The notes below the pieces were generated by a model, which was given only the letters and a program-made list of their open reading frames with translations, had not been told where the DNA came from and made no database searches. DNA of 33,083 nucleotides from the NCBI GenBank assembly GCA_024276465.1, contig JAJRXD010000036.1:1-33083 (forward strand). The letters run 5' to 3'. Of the stretch, positions 1,947 to 13,754 are shown piece after piece. The position numbers and the translations under genes are program-made. Each line of letters starts with the position of its first letter. The stretch's first letter is position 1. The stretch comes from Deltaproteobacteria bacterium. Its GTDB lineage: Bacteria; Desulfobacterota; WTBG01; CAIYCZ01; CAIRTM01.

Positions 1947-3371
1947 ATGAGTCAACTTGAAAACCCAAAAGATGTTTTGGATTTAATTAAAAGGGAAAAA
2001 GTAGAGGTTATTGACATGAGGTTTATGGATTTTCCAGGGCTGTGGCAGCATTTTTCCATCCCTTCGCGGGAGATGGACGAAGACATGTTTGACAGCGGCC
2101 TTGGATTTGACGGTTCAAGTATAAGAGGCTGGCAGGCAATTAATGAATCTGATATGCTTGTAAAACCAGTACCTTCAACAGCATTTATTGATCCTTTCCT
2201 TGAACATAAGACCCTTGTTTTGATCTGTAATATTTGTGATCCCCTTACTGGTGAAGACTATACAAGGGATCCCCGCAATATTGCACGTAAAGCTGTTAAT
2301 TATCTTAAAAGTACAGGTATTGGTGAAACAGCCTATTTCGGGCCTGAGGCAGAGTTTTTTATTTTTGAGGATATTCGTTTTGACCAGAATGAGCACGAAG
2401 GATATTATCACATTGATTCTATCGAGGGAAGATGGAATACAGGCAGAGTAGAAACCCCGAATCTCGGTTATAAGCCCCGCTATAAAGAGGGGTATTTCCC
2501 TGTACCACCCACAGACAGCCAGCAGGATATAAGAAGCGAGATGATGTTGACTCTTGAAAGGATGGGTGTCCTGATCGAAGCACAGCATCATGAAGTTGCC
2601 ACCGGTGGCCAGGCAGAAATAGACATGCGTTTTGGTCCACTTGTTGAGATGGCTGACAATGTGCTGAAGTATAAATATGTTATTAAAAGTGTGGCAAAAA
2701 AACATGGCAAGACAGTAACATTCATGCCTAAACCTCTGTTTAATGACAATGGAACAGGAATGCATACTCACATGTCCTTCTGGAAGGGAGATAACAACCT
2801 GTTTGCAGGGGATATGTATGCTGGGCTGTCTCAGGAAGCACTTTATACAATTGGAGGCATTCTCAAGCATGCACCTGCTTTGTTAGCCTTCACCAATCCC
2901 ACGACCAACAGCTACAAGCGCCTGGTGCCGGGTTTTGAAGCACCTGTTAACCTTGCATATTCCAGCAGGAACAGAAGCGCCTGCGTCCGTATTCCCATGT
3001 ATTCATCTTCTCCAAAAGCAAAGAGGCTTGAGTTCCGCTGTCCTGATCCAAGCTGCAATCCATACCTGGCCTTTTCCGCGATGCTGCTTGCAGGCGTTGA
3101 TGGAATTCTTAACAAAATTGATCCTGGAGATCCTCTTGATAAGGATATTTATGATCTGCCGCCGGAAGAACTTGCAAAAGTACCACAGGCCCCAGGATCC
3201 CTGAGAGATGCTTTGAATTCTCTGGAGAAAGACCATGATTTTCTGCTGAAAGGTGATGTGTTTACCAGTGATGTGATTGAGACATGGATAACCTACAAAA
3301 TGGAGAATGAAGTCCAGGCAATTGATTTGCGTCCTCACCCGTGGGAGTTTGCTCTTTACTATGATATTTAG
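1947..3371 (+). CDS. glnA: Glutamine synthetase, type I
   Basis: Makes glutamine from glutamate, ammonia and ATP; cytoplasmic dodecamer. The 474 residues match the GSI length. Visible motifs include the beta-grasp segment [12 protein letters not shown] (52-62), [10 protein letters not shown] (131-140, metal ligands), [15 protein letters not shown] (266-280, ATP site), [14 protein letters not shown] (321-334) and the Arg segment [10 protein letters not shown]. Tyr402 in DIYDLPPEE corresponds to the adenylylated tyrosine of enterobacterial GS, so this is the GSI-beta, adenylylation-controlled type. That agrees with glnE being the next gene. GAGGAGG at 1934-1940 lies six bases before the ATG and fixes the start. 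Transcription is probably from the -24/-12 element at 1647 under a nitrogen-responsive activator, plausibly the one encoded just upstream. Confidence 0.98.
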
Positions 3372-3372
3372 T

Positions 3373-3517
3373 CTGAACGAAAAGTCGAGGATTCACAGTT
3401 GTCATTGCGAGGAGTGAGTAACGAACGACGAAGCAATCCCCCTGTTTTCAAGAGATTGCTTCGGTCATGCTTCCCTCGCAATGACAGAAAAATACCATTA
3501 ATGGGGTTTTCGTTCAG
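3373..3517. repeat. Nested inverted repeat / extragenic hairpin element
   Basis: The core arms are TGTCATTGCGAGGAG (3400-3414) with GACGAAGCAATC and, on the far side, GATTGCTTCGG ... CCTCGCAATGACA ending at 3486. An outer pair, CTGAACGAAAA (3373-3383) and TTTTCGTTCAG (3507-3517), encloses them. This resembles the widely dispersed TGTCATTGCGAGG intergenic hairpins known in many proteobacteria. A decayed relative lies near 9749. No coding potential is apparent; the short frame across it is chance. Confidence 0.75.
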
Positions 3518-3560
3518 GCTCTATTTAACCTTAAGCGAACTTATTGAAAGTACAGACATA

Positions 3561-3602
3561 AAAAAGCAGGGGTTTTGTTTTGCAAAACCCCTGCTTTTTT
3601 TG
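3561..3602. terminator. Strong bidirectional-type intrinsic terminator between glnA and glnE
   Basis: A 12-bp perfect stem, GCAGGGGTTTTG (3566-3577) with CAAAACCCCTGC (3583-3594), has a 5-base loop, an A-run before and a T-run after. It ends only about 15 bases before the glnE ATG, so glnE must rely on readthrough, attenuation or a promoter overlapping the hairpin. Confidence 0.9.
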
Positions 3603-3616
3603 TATCTTTATCTGCC

Positions 3617-6600
3617 ATGAGCACAGAGCCAGAGTTTCGAAAATTAAAGAGTCTATGTCCCAATATTGCTGATGACCTTCTTAATGAGCATATATCACGG
3701 CTGAATGCAGGTTATTTTGATGCGTTCAGCGAGCAGGAGGTCTGCCGGCATATTTCTGATCTTTCAACACTTTCTCCTGAAAATCCGATCAGAACAGTGT
3801 TAGAAAAAGATGATACTGGTCTTGTGCGATGCACTTTTACAGCTTTTGATTATCCTTTTGCCTTTTCACTTCTGACAGGTATTCTGGCAGGCATGGGTTT
3901 TTCAATACAGTCCGGCAGGGCTTTTACCTATGCAAAAAGTTTCAGGCGTGCCCCTGCTGCCATGCACAGGCGAAGGTTTTCCCGCAGAAAAGTGATTGAA
4001 AACAGCCTTGAAAGAAAAAAAATAATCGATTGCTTTTCAGGATCTGCTGTTTCTTCTCTTCCTTTTGATGTGTGGAAAATGGAAGTTAAGAAAAGAGTTG
4101 AAGAAATATTTATTCTGCTTGAAAAAGCTGATAGTTATTCTGTTACAAGGGCTAAAGTACTGGTTAATGAGCAGGTGGTTAATTTCCTGAGGGATGAAAG
4201 CATTGATTACAAATCTGTTTTGTATCCGATCAAAATTGACGTTGATAATGAACACGGCCCTTTTACCAGGATGAAGGTTATTTCAGAGGACACACCTTTT
4301 TTCCTCTATACCCTCAGCACAGCTTTTTCTCTTCATAATATTTTAATAAAAAATGTTTCTATCCGCACTGAACATTCATTAGTTGAGGATGAGTTTGATC
4401 TTGTTGATAATTTGGAGAAAAAAATTGAAGATCCGGTGCTGTTGTCACGGGTCAAGCTGTCTGTTCTTCTGACAAAGCAGTTCAGCTATTTTCTTGGAAG
4501 GGCTCCTGACCCTTATACAGCCCTGTCCAGGTTTGAAAAGCTTGTTGAAGATCTGGCCCAGGCTCCTGGAAAAGGACAGACAATTGAGATGCTCTCAAGC
4601 CCTGATGTCATGCAGAACCTGGCCCAGGTGTTTGGTGCAAGTGATTTTCTGTGGGAGGACTTTATCCGTGTCCAGTATGAGGAATTACTGCCGCTTATTT
4701 CCTCGCGGGCCGGAAAAAAAGTTTATATTGAGCCTTTAGATGTGGTTGAGCAAAGGCTGGAGGAATCTTTGAAAGGCATATCATCGTGGGATGAAAAAAT
4801 TGATAAAATCAATCAATTTAAGGACAGAGAGATATTTCTTATTGATCTTGACCACATAATCAACCACATCACTGACTTTAAAATTCTCTCCGGGCGTCTG
4901 ACTGTTCTTGCAGAAGCAGTTATAAGGATTATGATGGGTCTTGTGTATAACAGGCTTGCAAAACGCTTTGGTGTTCCAAGGACAGTTGCGGGATTTGAGG
5001 TGAAATTTGCTGTTCTTGGACTGGGTAAATTCGGTGGTGCTGCTCTGGGGTATGCATCGGATATAGAGCTTCTGTTCGTGTACAGTGACAATGGACAGAC
5101 TGACGGTGACAGACCTTTGGAAAACTCTGAGTTTTTCAATATCCTTATCAAGGAACGGACAGGCTCAATCAAGGCGAAAAGAGAGGGTATTTTTAATATT
5201 GACCAGAGGCTCAGGCCCTATGGAAATGACGGTCCCCTTGCATCAAGCCTGGAAACATTCTGCCGGTACTATGGAAAAGGGGGCGCTGCCCACTCATATG
5301 AGCGTCTTGCGCTTGTGCGGATGAGGGCTGTTGCCGGGGATATGGATTTTGGACTGCAGATTGAGAGACTGCGCGACGAGATGATTTATTCATCAAAAAG
5401 TATTGATTTAAAAGAACTGCGTGAGTTGAGGGAAAAACAGCTCAGAGAAAAAACAAAGCACGGAAAGGAAAACGCCAAATTCAGCCCCGGTGCACTTGTG
5501 GACCTTGAATATGCTGTTCAGCTTCTGCAGGTTGTCCATGGCATGAACATACCGGGCATGAGGACACCGAGAATACATAAGGCCCTCACGGAACTGAAAG
5601 AGGCGGGAGTTTTGAATGAGGACGAATGCAGGGGGCTGACAGAAGCTTATGATTTCTTGCGCCATTTAATCAATGGATTAAGAATGCTCAGGGGAACTGC
5701 CCGTGACCTTTTCATGCCTCCTGCAGGCTCTGTGGAATATGATCACCTTGCGCGCCGTCTTGGATATCTGAAAAAGCAGAACATGGAGCCTGCCAGGCAT
5801 CTTGAGCTTGAGTTTGGAACCAGAACCGCTGTTGTCCGCTTTTTTATAGAGCGTCATTTCGGGCGCGACTCAATCCCGGGTCCTGCTGTGGGAAATGCAG
5901 CTGATCTGGTGCTGTCGCAGAATGTTCCTGAGGATCTGGTCAGCAGAATTCTCAGGGGATATGGTTTTGAAAACCCTAAGCGAGCATACATTAATCTTAA
6001 AACCTTAGCAGGTATTGATGAAAAGGCACACGAGCTTTTTGCCAGGCTTGCCCTTCTTGCATGTGATATCCTGAACACAAGACCTGACCCGGACATGGCT
6101 CTGAACAACTGGGAAAGGTTTGTCAGGTCCCTGGACTGTCCTCAAAGCCATTATGATATGCTTCTGTCCCAGCCCATGCGCCTGGAAATTCTCCTGAGCA
6201 TTTTTTCAGGCAGTCAGTTCCTTGCAGATACTCTGATAAGGAATCCAGGCTTTTTTGAATGGATAACACTGCCTGAAAATGTACAGTCTTTGATTGAAAG
6301 AAATGCTGCAGAAAATGAGCTGAGAGCTATTCTTGACAATGCTGCAGATCACAAAGAATGGCTGAATGGTCTGAGGGTTTTTAAAAAGCGGGAGATACTG
6401 CGCATCGGGACGCGCGATATCTGTATGCAGGTGCCTGTGCAGGACATTGTTCTGGAGCTTTCAACCCTTGCAGAAGCTGTGATACATGTAGCGCTGGAAA
6501 AAATTTTTTCAGATATTGCTGAAACAAAAAATATCAGGCTGAATGCAGAAGATTTGTCAGATGCATTTTGTGTTCTGGCATTAGGTAAGCTTGGTGGCGA

Positions 6601-7429
6601 AGAGTTGAACTACAGCTCTGACATAGACCTGCTGGGCATATATGATGACAGCAGGTCGGCTGATTTTGAACATTCTGTGGGTGTTTCTCCTGAGAGTTTT
6701 TTTTCAGAGATAATCGGTTCCCTCAGATCTGATTTGTCAGCCTATACTGAGGAGGGCTACGCATACCGTGTGGATTTGAGACTCAGGCCTTACGGCAGAG
6801 CCGGCCTGCTTGTTTATTCAATGACAAGCCTTGAAAAATATTACAGGGAAAGGGCATCCCTCTGGGAACTTCAGGCATTGCTGAAAATGCGTCCTGTGGC
6901 TGGAAACCTTAAACTCGGGAAAATGTTTCTTGAGAAAATTCAGCCCTTGCTGCTTCAGGAATTTAAGCCTGATAAAGTTGTGAAATCAATTGAAAAAATG
7001 CGCAGCAAGGCAATCAAACAGCTTTCAAAAAAGATAAAAACCGGAGATGACATTAAGACCGGACTGGGAGGGATAAGAGATATTGAATTTTTGGTCCAGG
7101 GGCTTCAGCTCATGCACCTTCATGAATATCCTGAGCTGTTAAGCAGTAACTCACTGAAAGCTCTTAAACTCCTGAAAAAAACAGGCCTGTTACCGGAAAG
7201 CATCTCCGACCAGCTTTCAGATGATTATATTTTTCTGCGCAGGGTTGAACATGTCTTGCAGATCTATGAAGACCGGCAGACACATTCTCTTCCGCAAGGT
7301 CAGGCTGATTTGAATGCACTGGCAAAAAGAATTTTGGGGAAAGATGCAGATCATGATACATTTAATGAAAAGCTGAAATTTTGTCAGGCAAGAGTAAGAA
7401 AGGCTTATAAGAAATATTTAACGGGGTAA
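3617..7429 (+). CDS. glnE: Glutamine synthetase adenylyltransferase/adenylyl-removing enzyme with ACT-like N-terminal extension
   Basis: Adds AMP to, or removes it from, the regulatory tyrosine of GlnA. It has 1270 residues from the ATG at 3617, against 946 in E. coli. Two nucleotidyltransferase cores are visible. The first (removase half) has GLGKFGG ... ASDIELLF with D482/E484, a D-x-E where E. coli has D-x-D. The second (transferase half) has [19 protein letters not shown] with D1002/D1004. The spacing to the E. coli positions puts an extra ~300 residues at the N-terminus. That extension holds two stretches that look like ACT domains: [19 protein letters not shown] (near residue 78) and [19 protein letters not shown] (near residue 225). 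GlnD has a similar pair at its C-terminus. The start is chosen because the earlier in-frame start lies inside the terminator hairpin. No Shine-Dalgarno sequence is evident. Confidence 0.93.
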
Positions 7430-10533: not shown

Positions 10534-10740
10534 ATGCCCATGACAGTAGAAAGAAGATTGGGGAAGTTAATTCATGAAATAAAGGAAATAAAAAAAGAGC
10601 TTATCCTGGACAAATCGAACAAAATCATTTCGGCACAAAATAAAATAAATTCATGGGATAGCCTTGCTAAAAAAATTTCCTGTAAATGGGATAAAATTTC
10701 AGCAGTTGACGAAATTATTCAGCAAAGAGAAAAGATGTAA
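10534..10740 (+). CDS. VapB-like antitoxin of a PIN toxin pair
   Basis: A 68-residue, Lys/Glu-rich, mostly helical protein (RRLGKLIHEIKEIKKELI ... WDSLAKKISCKWDKISAVDEI). Its stop overlaps the ATG of the PIN-domain gene by one base (TAATG), so the two are translationally coupled. Size, position and the autoregulatory-looking promoter suggest the antitoxin. No clear ribbon-helix-helix or AbrB DNA-binding domain is visible, so its own promoter binding is uncertain. The ribosome site AAGGGAGA lies six bases before the ATG. Confidence 0.8.
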   Translation: MPMTVERRLGKLIHEIKEIKKELILDKSNKIISAQNKINSWDSLAKKISCKWDKISAVDEIIQQREKM

Positions 10741-11138
10741 TGAAAAAATTAACCATAGATAGTTCGGTTATCATTGCGTCTTTGCTGGTGGATGAGCCAC
10801 AGCATAAAGAGGCCTTGAAAATCTGGCATAGTGTACTGTCTGGAAAGTGTATGGCCATAATGCCCTATTCTGTCCTTGTTGAAATAGTGGCTGCTATAAA
10901 GAGAAGAACTGGTTCGGAAACATTAGCACGCTCAGTTAAAAAAGAATTGTTTGACCTTGAAACCGTATCTTTTGTTGTTTTAGATGACAATTCAGCAGAA
11001 GATGCTGCTGATCTGGCAATAAAAACAGGGGTACGTGGAATGGATGCTCTTGTGATACAAGTTGCCAGAGAATTCGGCACAGAACTTATCAGTTTTGACA
11101 ATGAGATGATAAAGAAGGCAAAAAAAGTACTTTCTTGA
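10740..11138 (+). CDS. PIN-domain ribonuclease toxin (VapC-like)
   Basis: 132 residues with the PIN fold: D7 in LTIDSSVI, E48 in VLVEIV, D102 in GMDALVIQVA and D120 in ISFDNEM form the usual Mg2+-binding acidic set. VapC toxins cleave tRNA or rRNA; the target here cannot be read from sequence. It is preceded and coupled to the 68-residue antitoxin, and the length is standard and intact. REP-rich non-coding sequence follows. Confidence 0.88.
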   Translation: MKKLTIDSSVIIASLLVDEPQHKEALKIWHSVLSGKCMAIMPYSVLVEIVAAIKRRTGSETLARSVKKELFDLETVSFVVLDDNSAEDAADLAIKTGVRGMDALVIQVAREFGTELISFDNEMIKKAKKVLS

Positions 11139-12284: not shown

Positions 12285-12578
12285 ATGAAAACAACGGCTA
12301 TTTCGACACTTAAGGCATCACTTAGCAGGTATCTTGGCATTGTTAAGGCTGGTGAAGAAGTGGTGATTACAGACAGGGGAAAACCTGTTGCCAAGATTGT
12401 TCCTTTGGAAAGAGGGGAGTTAAAGATTCCACCACATTTAGTTGACCTGGAACGTTCCGGCCTGGTACATATTGGTTCCGGAAAAATTACAAAGGGATTC
12501 TGGGAATTACCACGGCCTAAAGATTTGAGGGGAAGTGCCCTTGAAGCGCTGCTAAAAGAAAGAGAAACTGCCAGATGA
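12285..12578 (+). CDS. Phd/YefM-family antitoxin
   Basis: 97 residues beginning MKTTAISTLKASLSRYLG, then VKAGEEVVITDRGKPVAKIVPL, the hallmark Phd/YefM N-terminal DNA-binding fold. The C-terminal half (about 50-97) is the toxin-binding extension. It overlaps the PIN gene by four bases (ATGA). GGAGAG lies about ten bases upstream of the ATG, and the palindromic operator at 12237-12259 sits at the promoter, so autoregulation is very likely. Confidence 0.92.
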   Translation: MKTTAISTLKASLSRYLGIVKAGEEVVITDRGKPVAKIVPLERGELKIPPHLVDLERSGLVHIGSGKITKGFWELPRPKDLRGSALEALLKERETAR

Positions 12579-13003
12579 TGTTCTGGGATGCATCAGCAAT
12601 TATACCGCTGTGTGTTGCAGAGAAACATTCCAGAGCTGTCAAGCGGTTGCTTATGAATGATCCATTGATGGCTGTATGGTGGGGAACTCCGCTGGAATGT
12701 TTTTCAGCTTTTGCCAGATTGATCAGGCAGGGAGAGATTGACAGAGAACTGGACTATTTGCGTCCCCTGAATGAATTGATGAAGATCTGGACAGAAATAA
12801 AACCAGGTCATGACCTGCGTGATATTGCTTTCCGGATTATTGCGACACATCAGCTGAAATCAGCGGATTCTCTTCAATTAGCCTCAGCATTTATCTGGTC
12901 GGGCAAAAAACCCATGGGAAACAATTTTGTATGTTTGGATAAAAAATTGAGAGCAGCAGCCCAAAAGGAGGGTTTTAAAATTTTACCTTTAGCCACCCGG
13001 TAA
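12575..13003 (+). CDS. PIN-domain ribonuclease toxin (VapC-like)
   Basis: 142 residues. The acidic active-site set is visible: D5 (FWDASAI), E41 (PLECFSAF), D98 (KSADSLQLA) and D122 (CLDKKL). It pairs with the Phd-type antitoxin through a 4-bp overlap. Its sequence is not close to the other PIN toxin at 10740, so the two modules were probably acquired separately rather than by duplication. The RNA target is unknown. Confidence 0.9.
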   Translation: MMFWDASAIIPLCVAEKHSRAVKRLLMNDPLMAVWWGTPLECFSAFARLIRQGEIDRELDYLRPLNELMKIWTEIKPGHDLRDIAFRIIATHQLKSADSLQLASAFIWSGKKPMGNNFVCLDKKLRAAAQKEGFKILPLATR

Positions 13004-13202: not shown

Positions 13203-13754
13203 TTGGACTTCAAACTTGTTATAGAAAAACTTTTAGCGGCTTTTAAAGATAATGATATCAGCTATGCACTCATAGGAGGCTTTGCACTTGGTATCTGGAA
13301 AGTTCCAAGGGCTACAGTTGATGTTGATTTTCTTGTTTCCAGGGAGGATCTGGGGAAAGTCGATAAAATCATGAAAAATATGGGATATGAATGCCGGTAT
13401 CAGACTGAAAATGTTTCGCAGTATGTTTCACCGCTTGACATTTTCGGTGAGATTGATTTTATCCATGCTTTCCGTGAAATATCACTAAGTATGCTCAGCC
13501 GGGCTGAAGAAAGAAAAATATTTAACGAAACTCTAACTATTAAAGTGCTCCGGGTAGAAGACCTGATTGGATTGAAGGTTCAGGCTATGGCAAATGATGA
13601 ATCAAGGAAAGCGATTGATTTTGCTGATATAGAAGCACTGATGAAACTGCATGGGAAAGAAATTAACTGGTCAGACATTGAGGGGTATTTCAACATGTTT
13701 GGTTTTTACGATATGTTCTGCAAATTGAAGGGAAAGTACAGTGGAAATAAATGA
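13203..13754 (+). CDS. Nucleotidyltransferase-fold protein, candidate toxin-like partner
   Basis: 183 residues of the minimal nucleotidyltransferase superfamily. IGGFALGIWKVPRATVDVDF supplies the GG (25-26) and D-x-D (40, 42), and the third acidic residue is D85 in FGEIDF, so the active site looks intact. Relatives include the AbiEii toxin and stand-alone antitoxin-like or RNA-modifying enzymes; the precise family is unclear. The only in-frame start is TTG at 13203, with GACGGGA about nine bases upstream. The next small gene starts inside its 3' end (14-bp overlap). Sitting last in a run of toxin-antitoxin pairs, it may form a fifth pair with that gene. Confidence 0.8.
   Translation: MDFKLVIEKLLAAFKDNDISYALIGGFALGIWKVPRATVDVDFLVSREDLGKVDKIMKNMGYECRYQTENVSQYVSPLDIFGEIDFIHAFREISLSMLSRAEERKIFNETLTIKVLRVEDLIGLKVQAMANDESRKAIDFADIEALMKLHGKEINWSDIEGYFNMFGFYDMFCKLKGKYSGNK

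Follow-up and report, generated by a model that had tools for sequence, protein, structure and literature searches.

The window, by which we mean the whole 33,083-nucleotide stretch of deltaproteobacterial DNA that was analyzed, carries three genes near its start on the forward strand. A transcriptional activator with GAF, sigma54, and Fis domains, identified by domain search (positions 91 to 1533), lies upstream of glnA (1947 to 3371), and glnA is directly followed by glnE (3617 to 7429). According to the list of open reading frames and alignment, GlnA is the presumed substrate of GlnE and has its target tyrosine, Y402, in an IYDLPPEE motif. The glnE frame opens with the ATG at 3617, ends at 7429, and encodes 1270 residues; the frame list, Pfam, and alignments together describe it as a GlnE of the form ACT-ACT-AT-AR, in which AT denotes a putative adenylylating half and AR a putative removase half.

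The region between glnA and glnE has features of its own. An 87-nt element with 13-bp inverted ends (TGTCATTGCGAGG...CCTCGCAATGACA) occupies positions 3400 to 3486, looking like an interspersed palindromic repeat. Sequence inspection also revealed a perfect 18-bp terminator hairpin on the forward strand (3560 to 3600) that ends 17 nt before the glnE ATG, and a T-run accompanies it within 3560 to 3617. No clear ribosome-binding site was found upstream of the ATG. With such sequence in front of it, glnE may depend on a promoter of its own or on leaky termination. An Rfam search 5' of glnE gave no riboswitch match at gathering score, and the sub-threshold matches look like noise across the terminator hairpin. 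An alternative in-frame TTG at 3575 falls within the hairpin, and homologs of the protein start at the position equivalent to the ATG at 3617.

Judged by its domains and catalytic motifs, the window protein can be assigned to GlnE. Pfam recognizes two GlnE domains (PF03710), each followed by a helical GlnD_UR_UTase domain (PF08335), and in alignment the D-x-D/E metal sites are intact in both halves. The first catalytic half (residues 330 to 770; positions 4604 to 5926), assigned as probably AT-type from alignments, profiles, trees, and a structural model, has a site of the DxE type, D482-I-E484 (5060 to 5068). The second (residues 845 to 1268; positions 6149 to 7420), assigned as probably AR-type from alignments, profiles, and trees, has D1002-I-D1004 (6620 to 6628). 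Relative to D173 and D701, which we take to be the catalytic aspartates of E. coli GlnE, these sites are shifted by +309 and +301 residues, the same displacement of about 300 to 309 residues from which the original prediction had started. The first ~290 residues have no counterpart in conventional GlnEs: in a joint alignment, residues 1 to 200 are 97-98% filled in 56 GlnEs that share the extension (ACT-GlnEs) and 1-4% filled in 19 conventional ones. An extension lying within the removase domain, which had been named in advance as grounds for abandoning the idea of a sensor, was tested and is ruled out, as conventional GlnEs have almost nothing aligned there.

Sequence comparison identifies the extension as the sensor module of GlnD, since all 64 homologous extensions match the ACT-ACT end of that protein in the GlnD models TIGR01693 and PRK05092 (best 2e-21 and 1.3e-26). 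Pfam ACT is matched by 49 of the 64 at E<=0.1 (best 4e-8). The window's own extension lies below the reach of the Pfam ACT model and matches the C-terminal ACT part of the GlnD models at 3e-7 (PRK05092) and 5e-4 (TIGR01693). In the reverse direction, a profile built from four extensions picks out, across dozens of genomes, the ACT domains of GlnD, and direct alignment of the extension with GlnD gives common blocks across ACT1 and ACT2. An AlphaFold2 model of residues 1 to 313 (pLDDT 88.2, pTM 0.87) contains two ferredoxin-like ACT folds. The matches to GlnD and ACT models, together with these predicted folds, argue that the likeness to ACT domains is not due to chance. Tandem ACT domains related to the C-terminal sensor pair of GlnD had been suspected from the letters of the sequence, and both parts of that suspicion are borne out by the homology searches and by the structure prediction that had been proposed as a check.

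The module begins with a helical segment (residues 4 to 50; positions 3626 to 3766) that, by profile searches and the AlphaFold2 model, is common to GlnD (from about model position 612 on) and to the 180-kDa NAD-glutamate dehydrogenase mGDH180. Model, fold search, and alignments then place ACT1 at residues 58 to 170 (3788 to 4126) and ACT2 at residues 206 to 293 (4232 to 4495). The two DxP-hydrophobic segments predicted near residues 78 and 225 correspond to D78-Y-P80 in the ACT1 loop and D225-T-P227 in the ACT2 loop. Pre-ACT helices, ACT1, linker, and ACT2 align with GlnD throughout; the window extension differs from GlnD in its longer ACT1 loop and linker, and the pair, which in GlnD is C-terminal and follows the NT and HD domains, here stands N-terminal to an apparently AT-type half. 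The closest structural match of the extension model is aspartate kinase (Z 10.5, rmsd 3.4, 145 aligned), and threonine deaminase also matches (Z 8.2, rmsd 3.3, 140 aligned). What the extension shares with these two amino-acid-regulated enzymes is the ACT fold and the way in which two such domains are set against each other within a single chain; they are otherwise different enzymes with no relation in sequence beyond ACT. mGDH180 is likewise a different enzyme, and it matches the first half of the module alone, in the pre-ACT helices and ACT1 (Z 9.6, rmsd 3.5, 142 aligned). By hmmsearch, extension residues 10 to 106 match residues 489 to 585 of PDB 7a1d, this same region of mGDH180, at E 0.0065, which suggests that GlnD, GlnE, and the 180-kDa NAD-glutamate dehydrogenase share one nitrogen-sensing module.

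A scan of GTDB genomes for ACT-GlnE yielded 72 loci in Deltaproteobacteria/Desulfobacterota, Spirochaetes, Kiritimatiellae, Lentisphaerae, Verrucomicrobia, Planctomycetes, Chitinivibrionales, and a few Chloroflexi, and the proteins are mostly 1230-1300 residues long. We also carried out the comparison across the window's phylum that the original prediction had suggested: among 197 genomes of at least 90% completeness, 80 encode a GlnE, and six of these have the ACT form. A tblastn search of IMG/VR found no relatives.

In the textbook view, GS adenylylation is governed by a bicyclic cascade: GlnD is the main reader of glutamine, and the signal passes on through PII. PII proteins of E. coli-type systems are uridylylated at Tyr51, and GlnD there binds glutamine at a single site (PMC4285133). 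The source assembly, a MAG that is 95% complete, departs from this cascade in containing no GlnD recognizable by a TIGR01693 profile search; its two matches to that profile, examined as a possible hidden GlnD, are a CCA-adding enzyme and RelA. Of its four PII-family proteins, the AmtB-linked one (GlnK) has Ile at position 51, and no PII bearing Tyr51 is present. Position 51 follows the numbering of E. coli GlnB; what supports the conclusion is the RGAEY motif as aligned in GlnD-bearing genomes.

The same pairing of absences recurs among relatives. Of 50 sampled ACT-GlnE genomes, 34 lack a recognizable GlnD and the other 16 encode a GlnD-like protein, whether full-length or partial, with absence read from MAGs. 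In the phylum sample, GlnD is present in 70/74 genomes with conventional GlnE versus 3/6 with ACT-GlnE (Fisher P 0.008, uncorrected for relatedness). Tyr51 occurs in 17 of 18 PIIs from nine GlnD-bearing ACT-GlnE genomes and in none of 18 PIIs from 13 GlnD-less ones; the latter count sets aside G017, a GlnD-less genome of 93% completeness whose PII has Tyr51 and whose glnD contig may simply be missing from the assembly. Ten GlnD-less genomes gave no PII at E<=1e-20. Because the presence of GlnD partly tracks phylum, the correlation with PII does not represent many independent events. Furthermore, because 16 of the 50 genomes keep GlnD, with 16 of 17 PIIs there of the classical kind, ACT-GlnE is not solely a GlnD substitute; where GlnD is present, glnD, glnK, amtB, glnA, and ACT-glnE can adjoin (L020, L021, L030).

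We consider it rather probable that ACT-GlnE, with an AT half fused to a GlnD-type ACT pair, senses an amino acid, most probably glutamine, directly. Direct sensing of an amino acid is well supported by context, because the source genome lacks GlnD and its GlnK lacks the uridylylation tyrosine. The identity of the ligand is complicated by the ACT2 "DxPG" loop, whose glycine, present in 11 of 12 aligned GlnDs, is replaced in the extensions by Ala (41/64) or Phe (18/64; Phe228 in the window). Ala predominates at this position where GlnD is present (16/17), and Phe is frequent where GlnD is missing (13/33). This replacement could reflect a changed ligand or lost binding, and thus it is not safe to take glutamine for granted.

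The alternative that we take most seriously, and still regard as unlikely, is that the ACT pair no longer binds a ligand and instead acts as a dimerization, scaffold, or docking module, for example for GlnK or GS, while glutamine acts on the catalytic domains. ACT and ACT-like domains can serve as ligand-free dimerization modules, and in E. coli ATase glutamine reportedly acts on the catalytic domains; the altered ACT2 loop would fit such a role. Against this, conservation across several phyla extends to both DxP loops and to many residues on the side of the pocket, with each Asp retained in 63/64 homologs and F229, L230, and D258 in all 64. The alignment shows that ACT1 of E. coli GlnD likewise lacks the loop glycine, so a domain without this glycine may still function, and a pair without a ligand would leave GlnD-less genomes with no known nitrogen input.

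Next in standing, and in our view improbable, is that the pair senses a different small molecule, either another amino acid or a nitrogen-status metabolite. The changed loop residue is compatible with this idea, as are the ligands of the closest solved folds, which are Lys and Thr in aspartate kinase, Ile in threonine deaminase, and Arg in CASTOR1. The homology in sequence, however, is to GlnD, a glutamine sensor (PMC4285133), and the substrate context is glutamine synthesis.

In E. coli GlnE, the N-terminal position of AR and the C-terminal position of AT are established (Jaggi et al. 1997, cited in PMC9249168). Our alignment shows that most conventional GlnEs have an ELNFSSDIDL-like motif first (AR) and an ELGYxSDLDL-like motif second (AT). 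The halves of ACT-GlnE appear crossed with respect to this order. In profile-profile comparison, the C-half matches the conventional N-half better than the conventional C-half (E 5.5e-96 vs 1.9e-84), and the N-half matches the conventional C-half better than the conventional N-half (1.9e-66 vs 8.8e-60). Scores of individual ACT-GlnEs are crossed for 56/56 N-halves and 53/56 C-halves, and a maximum-likelihood tree of halves supports the crossed grouping with bootstrap/SH-aLRT values of 100/99, or 100/98 when planctomycete halves are added. The window protein is thus probably ordered ACT-ACT-AT-AR, permuted relative to conventional GlnE; as the AU test rejects no unswapped tree (p 0.11-0.13), the permutation is likely and unproven. 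An AlphaFold2 model of residues 1 to 780 (pLDDT 86.0, pTM 0.78) confirms the predicted fold and leaves the type of the half undecided by near-equal Z, with 34.4 against the E. coli AT domain 3k7d (rmsd 3.1, 26% identity) and 34.1 against the AR domain 1v4a (rmsd 4.2, 21% identity).

Planctomycete proteins offer a further view of this order. Six of them (L169-L174, from genomes G427, G486, G459, G337, G494, and G482) are arranged AR-ACT-ACT-AT, with a YSSDIDL half in front, the ACT pair in the middle, and a half bearing the window-type DIE signature at the end; in the tree, their first halves group with the window C-half (97/90) and their last halves with the window N-half (100/100). The spacing of the halves alone suggests the same order in about 20 of 100 GlnE-bearing planctomycete genomes sampled. 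A third architecture consists of ACT-ACT-AT alone, in proteins of 756-912 residues from Phycisphaeraceae (L062, L065, L069), Planctomycetaceae (L067), and Chloroflexi (L063). No second GlnE domain was found in these five genomes, each of which encodes one or more GS proteins that retain the target tyrosine. Across all three architectures, the ACT pair constantly stands directly before the AT-type half. Because the planctomycete halves group with those of the window in the opposite order, a firmer conclusion from these comparisons is that the ACT pair is fixed to one catalytic half while the other half may stand on either side.

Alternatively, ACT-GlnE may have the usual AR-AT order, with the ACT pair adjoining the removase and the crossed resemblance arising as a tree artifact or by independent duplication. 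We hold this to be quite improbable. The AU test rejects neither the usual order (p 0.129 and 0.121) nor independent duplication (p 0.11), and type-specific residues at eight columns do not discriminate between AR and AT types; the crossed tree grouping, the agreement of the profile and per-sequence scores with it, and the planctomycete proteins that have both of the same halves in opposite order all speak against it. The half adjoining the ACT pair is accordingly best regarded as probably adenylylating and not the removase, in which case the protein is more than an E. coli GlnE to which a region has been added; on this point the original prediction, which described a GlnE with an N-terminal extension, needs correction. 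The remaining alternative, that the N-terminus was called wrongly or that the extension belongs to the ordinary removase domain, has practically no standing: the lack of a clear ribosome-binding site before the ATG would suit it, but it is already refuted by conservation, in that an open frame of the same length with conserved sequence recurs in dozens of genomes from several phyla and the extension is absent from conventional GlnE.

Three other candidates in the architecture survey require comment. The frame of L084 (Anaerolineae) is cut by the contig start, and the protein groups with planctomycete C-halves; it was rejected as a single-half enzyme. L020 and L057, which seem to be split or broken, were likewise left out of that class. 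In L020 (G043, a one-contig MAG), frames of 633 and 776 residues lie on opposite strands near 1.966 Mb and 4.048 Mb, 2 Mb apart, and the apparent split of this ACT-glnE is an inversion or a misassembly.

In the mechanism that we propose, an amino acid, most likely glutamine, would bind the ACT pair when nitrogen is plentiful, and the occupied pair would drive the adjoining AT half to adenylylate GlnA at Y402. The AR half would be restrained in coupling with AT activation, and when the ligand is low, removal of AMP would dominate. The ACT pair, its homology to GlnD, its attachment to an AT-type half, the absence of GlnD, and a GlnK without Tyr51 are computed results; we infer the ligand, the direction of regulation, and the coupling to the AR half. 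In genomes without GlnD, one step would replace the relay from glutamine through GlnD and PII-UMP to GlnE, and in those that keep GlnD, ACT-GlnE would provide a second, direct input. A three-protein nitrogen relay may therefore have collapsed into one protein here. A broader reading, on which we are nearly evenly divided, is that ACT-ACT-AT constitutes a self-contained, amino-acid-regulated module for GS adenylylation that has been joined to a removase half in two opposite orders or that, in some Phycisphaeraceae and Chloroflexi, works by itself as a one-way adenylylase, and that, without GlnD and with a PII that cannot be uridylylated, it forms a one-protein circuit from glutamine to GS.

In common with E. 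coli-type GlnE, the window protein has two nucleotidyltransferase halves, helical domains, intact D-x-D/E sites in both halves, and an adjacent glnA encoding the GS target tyrosine; it differs in its N-terminal ACT pair, its DxE first site, and the probably opposite order of its halves. In the proposed model, it would work like a GlnE equipped with the sensor of GlnD, or like aspartate kinase with its ACT pair. Our results suggest a direct union of sensor and adenylylating enzyme in several phyla whose members are mostly uncultured, with the intermediate steps of the cascade either absent or closed to modification. ACT-GlnE offers a compact subject for studying the effect of glutamine on adenylyltransferase, a long-standing question, and it shows how nature can shuffle and permute the modules of a bifunctional modifying enzyme. 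Where the AT-type half stands alone, one may ask by what route GS regains its activity when no removase half is present. We found no account of a GlnE with ACT domains in the open-access literature, which is weak evidence of absence.

Two further observations concern neighboring genes. An activator with GAF, sigma54, and Fis domains and no receiver domain, like the one at positions 91 to 1533 of the window, recurs near ACT-glnE in L074, L076-L079, and L082, and at several spirochete ACT-glnE loci it occurs together with amtB and glnK; this suggests a regulator tied to the ACT-GlnE form of nitrogen control. Farther along the window, positions 10740 to 11138, 12575 to 13003, and 13203 to 13754 hold two PIN-domain frames and an AbiEii-like nucleotidyltransferase, which are likely toxin-antitoxin systems or their remnants.
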